Of a stretch of DNA of 64,000 nucleotides, positions 3,881 through 57,246 are shown in pieces. Every line of letters begins with the position of its first letter. Within the stretch, counting starts at the first letter, position 1. The notes under the pieces are model-generated. The model made no database searches. It worked only from the letters and a program-made list of their open reading frames with translations, and was not told the origin of the DNA. The DNA comes from Pontibacillus sp. HMF3514 (GTDB lineage: Bacteria > Bacillota > Bacilli > Bacillales > BH030062): positions 1,240,001-1,304,000 of the forward strand of contig NZ_CP047393.1 of assembly GCF_009858175.1 (NCBI RefSeq), given 5' to 3'. The position numbers and the translations under genes were made by a program.

Positions 3881-3994
3881 TTATGTGTGCGAAAAAATCA
3901 GAAAAAAGTAAATTCACACACATTTTTTATAATCATTGACCGGCAGTTTGATGGTTGTTATAGTTCTCTTTATCAAATAAATAACAGATTCAGC

Positions 3995-4064
3995 ACCTTG
4001 TATAAGTTCAGGAATAGGGCCTGAACGTTTCTACCAGCTACCGAAAATAGCTCGTCTACAAGGG
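3995..4064 (+). promoter_or_regulatory. purine (guanine-type) riboswitch aptamer
   Basis: The layout matches purine riboswitches: P1 arm ACCTTGTA, TATAAG, a P2 hairpin (TTCAGG ... CCTGAA), the hallmark junction GTTTCTACC, a P3 hairpin (AGCTA-CCGAAAA-TAGCT), then GTCTACAAGG closing P1. The pyrimidine at the specificity position in GTCTAC is C, as in guanine/hypoxanthine sensors, rather than U as in adenine sensors. AATAGGG replaces the usual ATATGG. It lies upstream of a hypoxanthine/guanine permease gene, the expected target. Confidence 0.88.
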
Positions 4065-4080
4065 GAAAACGTCTATGTTT

Positions 4081-4123
4081 CTTTCCCTTTGTATAAGCAG
4101 CGGTAGTTTACCGGTGCTTTTTT
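4081..4123 (+). terminator. riboswitch expression platform: antiterminator arm and terminator
   Basis: The bases TTTCCCTTTGTATA (about 4083-4095) can pair with the 3' P1 strand TACAAGGGGAAA (4057-4068). When the ligand holds P1 closed, the following hairpin GCAGCGGTA/TACCGGTGC (4097-4117, one mismatch) with a T6 tract can form. This is the usual OFF-switch logic of transcription-terminating purine riboswitches. Confidence 0.75.
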
Positions 4124-4140
4124 ACATTCTATGAATCTAT

Positions 4141-4335
4141 AAAATTTATGGCTTGTGTATAACTTTTTAATGACAGTGGGGCCACGTCTAGCTCCAGCGC
4201 CCAGCAACGAAGGGACTTCCCTTGCCTCCGTTCGATAAGTCAACATCAAATTGGCAAACAATTTGTGTTTCCTTTATCTCACTACTGGCTCAGTCCAGTC
4301 CCTTCGTTGCTAAACGAGCGCTTACGCTTTTGTTA
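4141..4335. repeat. structured interspersed element, short copy A
   Basis: This ~195-bp element has imperfect inverted ends AGCTCCAGCGCC (4190-4201) and GAGCGCTTACGCT. A long stem pairs CAACGAAGGGA with TCCCTTCGTTG, and an inner hairpin CAAATTG/CAATTTG is present. Shared landmarks with other copies are GATAAGTCAACATC, GTGTTTCCTTTA and GGCTCAGTCCA. About 45 bases to the left (GGCTTGTGTATAACT) are also shared with the copy at 28296. It lies in the permease leader, between riboswitch and ribosome site. Confidence 0.85.
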
Positions 4336-4357
4336 TATGCATCTAGGAGGGGACATC

Positions 4358-5650
4358 ATGAGACATTTCTTCAAGTTTAATGAACGTGAAACGAATTATA
4401 AACAAGAAACGATGGCCGGTATTACCACGTTTCTTTCTATGGCCTATATTTTAGTCGTTAACCCGATCATTTTAAGTCAGGCTGGGATTGATAAAGGGGC
4501 ACTCTTTACGGCTACTGCTTTATCCGCCATTGTTGGATCGCTTTTAATCGGACTGATGGCAAACTTTCCTGTTGGTATTGCACCAAGTATGGGGCTTAAT
4601 TCATTCTTTACCTTTTCTGTCGTTATCGGGATGGGGATTGAATGGCAAGTCGCTTTAACGGGAGTATTTATTGCTGGCATTATCTTTATGATTCTAAGTC
4701 TTCTGAAGATACGAGAGAAAATCATTAATGTGATTCCGAAAGATTTAAAACATGCCATTGCAGGAGGCATCGGGTTTTTCATTGCGTTTATTGGTTTGAA
4801 AAATGCCGGTATTGTTGTAGGAAACGAGGAGACGTTGGTAGCAATTGGTCAATTGACTAATCCTGCGACTGCCCTTGCCGTGTTTGGTTTTATTATTACT
4901 TTGATGATGCTTGTGCGTGGAATTCGTGGAGGTATTTTCTATGGAATTGTCATCACCAGCATTGTAGGCATGAGCATTGGATTAGTAGATGTGCCTGACT
5001 CCGTGGTTGGAGAGGTACCTAGCCTTGAGCCAACATTTGGGGTTGTTTTTCAGCACTTAGGGGATATCTTTACTCCTGAAATTCTTGCTGTTATTTTTAC
5101 ATTTTTATTTGTTGCGTTTTTCGATACGGCTGGTGCACTTATTGCTGTGGCCAGTCAGGCAGGTATTATGAAGGACAATCAAATTCCAAATGCAGGTCGC
5201 GCTCTATTAGCGGATTCCACTTCTGGAGTGGCTGGGGCTATCTTTGGTACTTCCACAACGGCTTCGTTTGTTGAATCCTCTGCCGGAGTTGCTGTTGGTG
5301 GCCGTACAGGCTTTACGAGTGTTGTAATTGCCATCTGCTTCTTTTTTGCATTGTTCTTTTCACCTATACTTGGCGTCATTACAACTGAAGTAACAGCACC
5401 TGCCCTCATCATTGTCGGTGCTCTTATGGCGTCAGAGGTAAAAGCGATTGACTGGAGCAAGATGGAAATCATGGTTCCGGCATTTGTCACCATTATCACA
5501 ATGCCACTCACTTTCAGTATAGCAACGGGGATTGCCCTTGGTTTCATCCTTTACCCATTTGCTATGGTTGCTAAAAAAGATTGGAAGCAAGTCCACCCAA
5601 TTATGTACGGTCTAGCTGGAATGTTTATGTTGTATTTTGTGTTTTTGTAA
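4358..5650 (+). CDS. pbuG: hypoxanthine/guanine permease, NCS2 AzgA-type
   Basis: Membrane purine uptake carrier of 430 residues with about 12 hydrophobic segments. AzgA-subfamily motifs are visible: MGLNSFFTF (about 85-95), FDTAGALIAVASQAG (about 255-270) and TSTTASFVESSAGVAVGGRTG region (about 300-320). The start is set at the ATG at 4358, which has AGGAGGGG seven bases upstream and begins MRHFFKFNERETNY; the open frame reaches back into the repeat, where no start is credible. A purine riboswitch with terminator lies upstream, so expression should fall when guanine or hypoxanthine is plentiful. The paralogue PbuO is an alternative name. Confidence 0.9.
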   Translation: MRHFFKFNERETNYKQETMAGITTFLSMAYILVVNPIILSQAGIDKGALFTATALSAIVGSLLIGLMANFPVGIAPSMGLNSFFTFSVVIGMGIEWQVALTGVFIAGIIFMILSLLKIREKIINVIPKDLKHAIAGGIGFFIAFIGLKNAGIVVGNEETLVAIGQLTNPATALAVFGFIITLMMLVRGIRGGIFYGIVITSIVGMSIGLVDVPDSVVGEVPSLEPTFGVVFQHLGDIFTPEILAVIFTFLFVAFFDTAGALIAVASQAGIMKDNQIPNAGRALLADSTSGVAGAIFGTSTTASFVESSAGVAVGGRTGFTSVVIAICFFFALFFSPILGVITTEVTAPALIIVGALMASEVKAIDWSKMEIMVPAFVTIITMPLTFSIATGIALGFILYPFAMVAKKDWKQVHPIMYGLAGMFMLYFVFL

Positions 5651-12018: not shown

Positions 12019-12021
12019 AAA

Positions 12022-12085
12022 GTTTAGTTAATCTTACTACGGGCTCAGTCCAGTCCCTTCGTTGCTAAACGGGCGCTTCCACTTT
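12022..12085. repeat. solo 3' half of the structured interspersed element
   Basis: TTTAGTTAATCTTACTACGG, GGCTCAGTCCAGTCCCTTCG and CGGGCGCTTCC match the right-hand third of the elements at 4.1, 28.3, 55.3 and 57.1 kb. The left part is absent and the region begins next to palindrome copy 7. Confidence 0.75.
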
Positions 12086-12095
12086 TCTTATTTAT

Positions 12096-28278: not shown

Positions 28279-28295
28279 ATAAGTCCAGGAATTTA

Positions 28296-28676
28296 TAAAA
28301 TTAGTGGCTTGTGTATAACTCTTTAATGAGCGTGGGGCCTAGTCCAGCTCCAGCGCCCAGCAACTAGTATGCTTGGGCCCACATGACGTGGGTCAGATCG
28401 ACGTTGTCACAGGACGTGACGGGTTTAGTCGATCATTCTTTCTCCGTAAGATAAGTCAACATCGAATCGCTTTGCTCTTCGTGTTTCCTTTACACGTTTG
28501 TTACATAAAATTTTAACAATGAAGGAACTCGACGTAGTTAAAATTTCTAGGTGAAAGTACCACGGCAACTATGCTTCTGTCTGCGCCTATTGGCTTGCCA
28601 ATCAGCAAGTTTAGTTAATCTTACTGCGGCTCAGTCCAGCATATACGTTGCTACCCGGGCGCTTACGCTTTTGTTC
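28296..28676. repeat. structured interspersed element, long copy B
   Basis: A ~380-bp element with the same ends as the copies at 4.1 and 57.1 kb (AGCTCCAGCGCC; GGCGCTTACGC) plus two inserted blocks. Stems visible: CAACTAGTATGCT/AGCATATACGTTG outside; CCCAC/GTGGG; GTCAC/GTGAC inside GATCGAC/GTCGATC; a perfect AAATTTTAAC/GTTAAAATTT; ATTGGC/GCCAAT. It ends one base before the stop codon of the minus-strand dctB-like gene. A second long copy is at 55259. Confidence 0.85.
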
Positions 28677-53732: not shown

Positions 53733-55249
53733 TGAAGTGGCTAATGGTTGAAGATGAGATGATCGAGCGCGAAGGGTTGAAAAAGATGGTCACGGACCAA
53801 TTTACTGAGCTCAAACTCATTGGAGAAGCGGTATCAGGAAGAGAAGCGATCGATTTAGCTAAGGAGCATCACCCAGATTTAATCACAATGGATATCAAAA
53901 TGCCTGGTATGGATGGCATTCAAGCTGTTAAAGAGATAAAAGCTTGGAATCCTGACATTGAAATCATCATGATGACGGCATATAACGAATTTGAGTATGC
54001 AAGGGAAGTCATGCGACAGGGGGTTCAGGAGTATGTGTTAAAGCCTGCAAAAAAATCTGAACTCTATGCTACATTTCAGCGAGTTTTGAATGGAATAGCA
54101 GAAAAACGACAAAAAGAGAATGAAGGCCAGGATAAGCAGGCCATTCTGTCACTGATTCAATCTAACTGGATGCAAGCTTATTTTACGGAGCGAGTTATGG
54201 AGCATTACCCTGAAGAGTTAGCTTCATTTTTCCCTGCATCTAGTGGTAAGGGTTGTGCGATGATTGTTCATTTGGATGACCCACAAGGATACGAAGAACA
54301 ACAAGTGTGGATCAAAGAAGAGTTGGAGAAAAGCACTTATTGTTTAGTTGGACCGATCCAGAGCGGACACTTTCCTGTTTGGGTTTTTGCCTTTAAGGAT
54401 GAGGAAAAGGTTGCAAATCTATCAAAATGGATTAGAACCACTCTGCAACGATTCCAATCCGCTTTCCAAAAAAAGATTACCATCGGTATTGGAAACCTTT
54501 ATAATGAACCTTCACAGCTCATTCATTCCTATCATGAGGCTGTGATTGCAATGGCTTTTGTGAATCTTCAAAAAGGATATGTTTTGTATGATGAAGCCAA
54601 ATCACAACTTGCCCCTGGTGCCTTTAACCGTGTAGTGCAAGAGAAGAAAATCTATGAAGCTGTACGTAGTGGAGATTCTGATTTAGCCATTCATCAATTT
54701 GAACAGCTCTGGCCGTTACTGGATGAAGGTGTTGAGGAAAGGATCTCTTATTGTAAGGATCTTGTTCATGCAGTCTACGGCATTATCAAAGAAATGGGCA
54801 TAGCGGAGCAAAGCTTACTAAGTGATTTTCCTGAAGAAATGAATCCAAGTGATTGGAGAAAATGGGCTGTACAAAAGGTGGCACAAGCTTCAGATGGGAT
54901 TCGAAGCTGGAAGCATGTCACGTCAAAAGATGCGATTTGGGAAGCGGAAGAATGGATTAAATCTCATTTTGAAGAACCCATTACGCTTGAAGACGTTGCA
55001 GAACACGTATCTTTAAGTCCTTATTACTTCAGCAAAATCTTTAAAGAGAGACTCAATAAAAGTTTTGTAGATTACCTGACAGATCTCAGGGTTGTAAAAG
55101 CCAAAGAGCTATTAACAACAACCGATAAACCTTTAAAAGAAATCAGCCAACTAGTGGGCTATAAAGATCCGAATTATTTTAGTCGTGTGTTTAAAAAACG
55201 AATGGGCGTGACGCCTTCTGAATATAGGGTTCCTTCTATGAAGTCATAG
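53732..55249 (+). CDS. AraC-family response regulator
   Basis: A 505-residue regulator. Receiver domain 1-118 with phospho-Asp in LITMDIKMPGMDG (about 54) and Lys in YVLKPAKK. A long linker domain follows (130-390). The C-terminal double helix-turn-helix is VAEHVSLSPYYFSKIFKERL and VGYKDPNYFSRVFKKRMGVT. ATG 53732 has GGAGGG five bases upstream, while the ATG 53729 is too close. It likely activates the sugar ABC operon at 55727. Confidence 0.9.
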   Translation: MKWLMVEDEMIEREGLKKMVTDQFTELKLIGEAVSGREAIDLAKEHHPDLITMDIKMPGMDGIQAVKEIKAWNPDIEIIMMTAYNEFEYAREVMRQGVQEYVLKPAKKSELYATFQRVLNGIAEKRQKENEGQDKQAILSLIQSNWMQAYFTERVMEHYPEELASFFPASSGKGCAMIVHLDDPQGYEEQQVWIKEELEKSTYCLVGPIQSGHFPVWVFAFKDEEKVANLSKWIRTTLQRFQSAFQKKITIGIGNLYNEPSQLIHSYHEAVIAMAFVNLQKGYVLYDEAKSQLAPGAFNRVVQEKKIYEAVRSGDSDLAIHQFEQLWPLLDEGVEERISYCKDLVHAVYGIIKEMGIAEQSLLSDFPEEMNPSDWRKWAVQKVAQASDGIRSWKHVTSKDAIWEAEEWIKSHFEEPITLEDVAEHVSLSPYYFSKIFKERLNKSFVDYLTDLRVVKAKELLTTTDKPLKEISQLVGYKDPNYFSRVFKKRMGVTPSEYRVPSMKS

Positions 55250-55258
55250 ATAAGATGT

Positions 55259-55605
55259 TGATCATAGGTGTCTAGCTCCAGCGCCCAGCAACTAGTATGC
55301 TTGGGCCCACACGACGTGGGTTAGATCGACGTTGTCACAGGACGTGACGTACTTAGTCGATCATTCTTTCAGTAAGATAAGTCAACATCGAATCACTTCG
55401 TTCTTCGTGTTTCCTTTACACGTTTGTTAAATGAAATTTTAACAATGAAGGAACTCGACGTAGTTAAAATTTCTAGGTGAAAGTACCATGGTAATTATGC
55501 TTCTGTCTGCGCCTATTGGCTTGCCAATCAGCAAGTTTTGTTAATCTTACTGCGGCTCAATCCAGCATATAAGTTGCTAATCGGGCACCTCCGTTTTTCT
55601 TACAT
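55259..55605. repeat. structured interspersed element, long copy C
   Basis: About 94 percent alike by eye to the long copy at 28296, with changes mostly in loops (for example CCCAC-atgac-GTGGG versus CCCAC-acgac-GTGGG) and near the 3' end (GGGCACCTCCGTTTTTCTT). The 45-base left extension seen in other copies is absent. It separates the regulator gene from the ABC operon. Confidence 0.85.
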
Positions 55606-57060: not shown

Positions 57061-57246
57061 TGTAATTAGTGGCTTTAATTTATTTAGTAGAGTGGGCCAC
57101 ATCCAGCTCCAGCGCCCAGCAACGAAGGGAGTTCCCTCGCCTCCGTTCGATAAGTCAACATCAAATTGTTTCACAATTTGTGTTTCCTTTATCTTACTAC
57201 GGGCTCAGTCCACTCCCTTCGTTGCTAAGCAGGCGCTTCCGCTTTA
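57061..57246. repeat. structured interspersed element, short copy D
   Basis: Same short form as the copy at 4141: AGCTCCAGCGCC, CAACGAAGGGA/TCCCTTCGTTG stem, GATAAGTCAACATC, perfect hairpin CAAATTG-TTTCA-CAATTTG, GGCTCAGTCCA and GGCGCTTCCGCT. It lies inside the ABC operon between receptor and first permease genes. Confidence 0.85.

Follow-up and report, generated by a model that had tools for sequence, protein, structure and literature searches.

Five related elements lie within a 64-kb stretch of the Pontibacillus sp. HMF3514 genome (G000:C1:1240001-1304000, called the window here), and they raise the question of whether such repeats are non-autonomous mobile elements or regulatory RNAs. Both had been offered in the original prediction. 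The elements are probably copies of a MITE-like, modular, non-autonomous mobile repeat that is spread across the Bacillaceae and whose folded minus strand is selected.

The copies are named by the starts first given to them. Four full copies (short, 4141 and 57061; long, 28296 and 55259) and a solo 3' half (12022) were found at the positions predicted and with the internal blocks described, except that GGCTCAGTCCA is the sole block in the solo half and that GGGCAC/CGT stands for GGCGCT/GCT in the 55259 copy. Their extents were redrawn (Table 1). One class of copies has a conserved AT-rich extension to the left of the core, and the starts 4141, 28296 and 57061 fall within it. The 55259 copy directly adjoins the stop codon (55249) of the ORF before it.

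Table 1. Copies of the repeat in the window, their nested modules and the adjoining riboswitch.
Feature	Position in window	Strand	Description
Purine riboswitch aptamer (RF00167)	3978..4078	+	Directly upstream of short copy 1; context, outside the element
Short copy 1 (4141)	4128..4334	+	Class I left end 4128-4186 and 145-bp core 4187-4331; between the purine riboswitch terminator and the start of a downstream permease-like gene
Most conserved part of core	4234..4278	-	GATAAGTCAACATC...GTGTTTCCTTTATC
Solo 3' half (12022)	12019..12086 (approx.)	+	End of module C and 3' arm of core
Long copy 1 (28296)	28284..28672	+	Class I left end 28284-28342 and 330-bp core 28343-28672, with both modules
Bacillaceae-1 module (RF01690, 72.0 bits)	28378..28444	-	Nested in 5' arm of long copy 1
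Module C, 126 bp	28492..28617	+	Nested in 3' arm of long copy 1
Long copy 2 (55259)	55238..55598	+	Class II left end and 328-bp core 55271-55598, with both modules
Bacillaceae-1 module (RF01690, 73.4 bits)	55306..55372	-	Nested in long copy 2
Module C, 126 bp	55418..55543	+	In long copy 2
Short copy 2 (57061)	57063..57246	+	Degenerate class I left end and 145-bp core 57102-57246; between two + strand genes

The family is not a product of chance, since the 4141 copy has 60 BLAST matches in its own genome and the left-end 15-mer occurs at 133 sites, compared with 17 when it is reversed as a control. Many of the BLAST matches cover the 145 bp of the core with 85-93% identity, and the best non-self match has E=9e-73. 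A covariance model built from the copies gave 74 matches in this closed 3.98-Mb genome, which reduce to about 65 elements and fragments after manual merging. Searched across the order, the model matched 106 of 150 genomes and 61 of 83 genera; the weaker of these matches may be related repeats of about 112 bp that have only the ends in common. Nearly all of the loci listed in a pattern scan of GTDB are in Bacillaceae genera, and no copies were detected in plasmid and phage collections. Four pattern matches in viral contigs were set aside as chance (the model gave three of them 12.6 bits and the fourth no score). An Rfam search of the core, both strands, returned nothing above chance, and a literature search with the sequence blocks returned no relevant paper.

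An alignment of 42 copies resolves size classes of about 145, 205, 271 and 330 bp, all of which share the 145-bp core. In being short (145-391 bp), non-coding, dispersed and present in dozens of copies per genome, the elements have the general character of MITEs. A copy begins with an AT-rich left end (similar to TAAGAAA(G/T)TATAA), continues with the core of about 145 bp and closes with a right end, which is short. Inverted repeats, AGCnnnAGCGCC/GGCGCTnnnGCT, form the core ends; at the outer ends there is just a short imperfect TAAGAAA/TTTCTTA. Left ends fall into two classes, and each class usually goes with a particular right end: class I (TCTAGGAAATTATAAAATTTGTGGCTTGTGTATAACT...) has GTTCTTA on its right, and class II (GTAAAGAAAGTATAAGTTGTAGCTCATAGATG) has CTTATT. 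The outer right letters may be target sequence, as the nearest relative, G002, retains GTTCTCA at the empty site that corresponds to 28296. The outer stem had been thought to differ between short and long copies. Each length class contains both stem subtypes; for example, L041, L031 and L045 are 144-149 bp yet have the CAACTAGTATGC stem, and L032, L024 and L040 are longer yet have the CAACGAAGGG stem. The link seen in the window is thus a coincidence of few copies.

A non-autonomous mobile element is supported by the presence and absence of copies at orthologous sites. Nine sites were compared with G002, which we infer to be Pontibacillus marinus, where flanks are roughly 84-96% identical. The 4141 and 57061 sites there are without the element, and at the former the terminator T run of the riboswitch runs straight into the ribosome-binding site. 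The 28296 site has 7 bp instead of 390, and the L020 site has a short AT-rich stretch. Only about 45 bp of the ends are left at L033 and L052, the L028 copy is inverted, and at 12022 there is only an even shorter 3' remnant. The 55259 element is there, minus exactly the 126-bp module C. Some of the 'empty' sites may be deletions, since this nearest relative is just about 88-90% identical. No exact target-site duplication was detected at the empty sites in this comparison (at 4141 there is an imperfect TTACAT/TTATAT), and for that reason the family is called MITE-like and is not assigned to the MITEs.

In the window, positions 3978-4360 run from the purine riboswitch and its terminator through the 4141 element to a start codon, and the leader of the permease-like gene is about 200 nt longer than in the relative and has a long hairpin. 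Such effects on the host, including the extra hairpin between riboswitch and start codon, are probably incidental.

Placement of the copies is biased at one end. In 25 of 42 copies the left end adjoins an intrinsic terminator on the same strand, and in 1 of 42 the right end does so; either target choice or selection against insertion inside transcripts would explain this. The genes around the copies may be co-directional, convergent, divergent or antisense. That elements are found in every gene context argues against a regulatory RNA acting in cis. Co-orientation with replication, judged from an origin and terminus placed by the GC skew of the fetched stretches, was observed for 47 of 65 elements (p=4e-4). 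Among the aligned copies it holds for 33 of 42, not clearly above the flanking genes (46 of 72), so that co-orientation with replication is real but is not separable from co-orientation with genes.

The long copies contain the whole core, and the added length is two separate repeat modules nested in it. The step of 60 bp corresponds to a pair of Bacillaceae-1 hairpins (Rfam RF01690) that lie antisense to the element as read, and the step of 126 bp is module C. The RF01690 gathering cut-off (35) is exceeded by the roughly 60-bp module of the long copies only, not by the core. Module C is also free-standing, as a repeat of about 140 bp with a similar left end (GTTAAGAAAGTATAAAATTTTAGC) in a dozen other places, mostly behind terminators. 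It has the short imperfect end motifs TAAGAAA...TTTTCTTA in common with the core family. Comparison with the 55259 orthologue places its insertion point at CCTTT^ATCTTACTGCGG, within CCTTTATC and inside a TTTAT; the core itself has no TTTAT repeats at its ends. In other genera both Bacillaceae-1 and module C are found facing either way and in both of the core's arms, so that they behave as independent modules.

The reverse complement of Bacillaceae-1 has been proposed as a CsrA-binding RNA (PMC4333381), and CsrA is encoded in this genome. In most of the copies read, one or both hairpins have CGA or TGA instead of GGA, so that a functional CsrA decoy is not established. A wobble test of Bacillaceae-1 favours the reverse complement by 12 to 4, from few independent events.

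Other repeats in the genome touch on these modules. The free copies of module C (L249-L259, L272 and L274, about 140 bp and mostly just behind terminators) make up a third repeat family here. Family B, a second, non-coding repeat family of about 690 bp (L046, L047 and L050, e.g., at 524796, 641392 and 1522095 of G000:C1; also L048 and L049), has ends different from those of the core (AAAGCCCC...GTCCGTTGC / GCAACGGAAC). It carries Bacillaceae-1, with CGA or TGA and not GGA in the hairpin loops of the copies read, and seems to be the source of many of the 58 RF01690 matches above cut-off in the genome. At L051 (2155-2275) and L055 (371-437) Bacillaceae-1 is apparently free-standing, with an intrinsic terminator directly after it; L051 has two in tandem, whose reverse-strand loops are full GGA. 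Both loci may be ancestral ones of the sRNA type.

The core is one long imperfect hairpin, and its pairing is strongly conserved. Among 47 diverse copies, the plus-strand consensus has 35 pairs, 24 of which show compensatory changes. Pairing is kept in 94.6% of cells, as opposed to 81.5% in shuffles, and 0 of 500 shuffles reach the observed value by any measure; in slid controls, pairing collapses to 33-45%. Covariation is thus significant for a single fold. The minus-strand consensus contains 40 pairs (28 compensatory), with 95.6% of cells paired. Covariation had been put forward as a sign of a selected fold, and it holds up well; the part of that proposal that changes is the strand. The core appears to be constrained as a single strand, namely the minus strand, opposite to the one originally read.

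Mismatch types point to the minus strand. In 120 redundancy-weighted copies, the plus strand has A.C mismatches weighing 51.8 and G.T 7.6, a G.T share of 0.13 (95% interval 0.04-0.23). The 47-copy alignment, unweighted, gives 40 A.C and 17 G.T. An A.C on one strand is a G.U (or G.T) on the other, and so the minus strand is the one that tolerates wobble. The 120-copy alignment was fitted with the plus-strand model, and any bias that this introduced runs against the minus-strand result. A small tRNA control behaved as expected, with 8 G.T wobbles and 0 A.C on the sense strand. The test is compatible with folded RNA and with single-stranded DNA alike. Folding energy was tried and dropped as evidence on the strand: the minus strand is more stable in 120 of 120 copies, but the shuffled minus strand is also more stable and the z-scores are similar. 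The mismatch asymmetry is therefore the evidence used. The internal loops agree with the choice of the minus strand, on which they are of the sheared G.A type and of kinds known to be stable, GNA/GNA and tandem GA/GA. The plus-strand TNC/TNC and TC/TC pyrimidine loops correspond to minus-strand GNA/GNA and to an invariant tandem GA/GA. In the most conserved part, the minus strand folds as GAUAA-A-G-[GA]-AACA / UGUU-[GA]-C-UUAUC, with a 2x2 tandem G.A loop.

A fold of this kind would also be expected if the copies were primarily genes for trans-acting sRNAs, transcribed from the minus strand and multicopy by happenstance, to which Bacillaceae-1 adds GGA hairpins of the CsrA type. The covariation, the minus-strand wobble bias and the G.A loops all suit such genes, as do the proposed CsrA binding of the Bacillaceae-1 reverse complement (PMC4333381) and a host that encodes CsrA; minus-strand transcripts would meet the adjacent terminators, if these act both ways. 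What makes the explanation unlikely is that copy number and sites vary between close species, with sites that empty or invert, and that every gene context occurs. In addition, the GGA strand of Bacillaceae-1 is the plus strand here, opposite the strand favoured in the core, and one of its two loops is usually CGA, not GGA. For the mobile repeat itself a trans-acting RNA function is possible, because a fold conserved over 60 genera exceeds what a passive MITE needs. A bolder combination, to which we give a low probability, is that folded minus-strand RNA is both the dispersal substrate and a chassis that collects RNA hairpins, so that a bacterial SINE-like element spreads Bacillaceae-1 hairpins of the CsrA type through Bacillaceae genomes and rewires post-transcriptional regulation.

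It is somewhat less likely than the sRNA explanation that the DNA palindrome alone matters, as a cruciform or a replication-associated hairpin, with the compensatory changes arising by template-switch correction of an imperfect palindrome and not by selection. Palindrome arms can be co-corrected, and there are few wobble pairs in all, even the minus strand having them in about 2.5% of cells. However, the GNA/GNA and GA/GA internal loops remain unpaired and conserved, uncorrected, and the mismatch types are strongly strand-asymmetric, unlike the outcome of a strand-neutral correction.

Head-to-tail arrays of two to three copies, with near-identical spacers of 6-7 bp, occur in relatives, and these arrays often begin with a 5'-truncated copy fused to a terminator. 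Tandem arrays, partial copies, dispersal, a lack of coding sequence and structure on one strand would fit movement through an RNA copy made by a cellular reverse transcriptase of the group II intron or retron type, as in a bacterial SINE. This is improbable; the truncated array copies lack the minus-strand 3' part, not the 5' part, which is unusual for target-primed reverse transcription. Among the additional end-motif sites read, a search that was not exhaustive, there was no autonomous partner or transposase with the same ends; what turned up was unrelated genes or further repeat C copies. That the elements are decayed ends of a known insertion sequence, for which the imperfect TAAGAAA...TTTTCTTA motifs also present in repeat C might speak, is very improbable, since the 145-bp core has both ends and its interior conserved over many genera and has no room for a transposase gene, no insertion sequence with such ends was among those additional sites, and no known decayed transposon was found.

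For the non-autonomous repeat that we prefer, the hairpin serves as a chassis, with the Bacillaceae-1 hairpin pair and the 126-bp repeat nested in its arms to produce the four size classes. Dispersal would depend on an enzyme acting in trans, which would recognise the folded single strand as RNA or as single-stranded DNA, and insertion would take place behind terminators, left end first.

Several known systems resemble this repeat in part. Bacterial MITEs of the ERIC, BOX and NEMIS type are non-coding imperfect palindromes of 100-200 bp in intergenic regions, and BOX is modular. The likeness is in these general features only; the modules here differ in being independent repeats with free copies of their own, in either orientation. 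Palindrome-associated elements of the IS200/IS605 type also combine a folded single strand with replication co-orientation and no clear target duplication, but the favoured strand here is the minus strand, which is not the lagging-strand template for co-oriented copies. The closest published analogues, likened by description, would be the bcr repeats known from the B. cereus group. In two papers (PMC3446304, PMC6542083), bcr1-bcr18 are short (100-400 bp), intergenic, multicopy, MITE-like Bacillus repeats with conserved secondary structure, and their mobility is tied to a TTTAT motif; module C here is inserted inside a TTTAT, at CCTTT^ATC. In contrast, bcr1 is specific to the B. cereus group according to the title of its description, whereas the present family, compared by description only, is in at least 61 genera.

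Bacillaceae-1 is present as a nested module in the long copies. The 145-bp core is not Bacillaceae-1, and short copies are without it; in this genome Bacillaceae-1 also lies inside a different repeat family and, by itself, ahead of a terminator. This RNA, which is catalogued as an sRNA and has been suggested to be a CsrA decoy, is newly placed by these results, many of its copies here being cargo in dispersed repeats. Bacterial repeats can grow by nesting independent modules. A family-wide repeat with a strongly covarying fold and an assigned strand also makes its mover, and recognition as RNA or as single-stranded DNA, testable by compensatory mutants.

Two variants were seen in other genomes. 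In Neobacillus and relatives (L201, L211 and L159), part of the core's 3' arm gives way to a further module, CACAAGGAAGGC...CATCGCACGA.... A related repeat type of about 112 bp, with a weaker match to the core model, is found in G005:C1 (e.g., 1364773-1365117 and 3870217-3870798), where it also forms tandem arrays.
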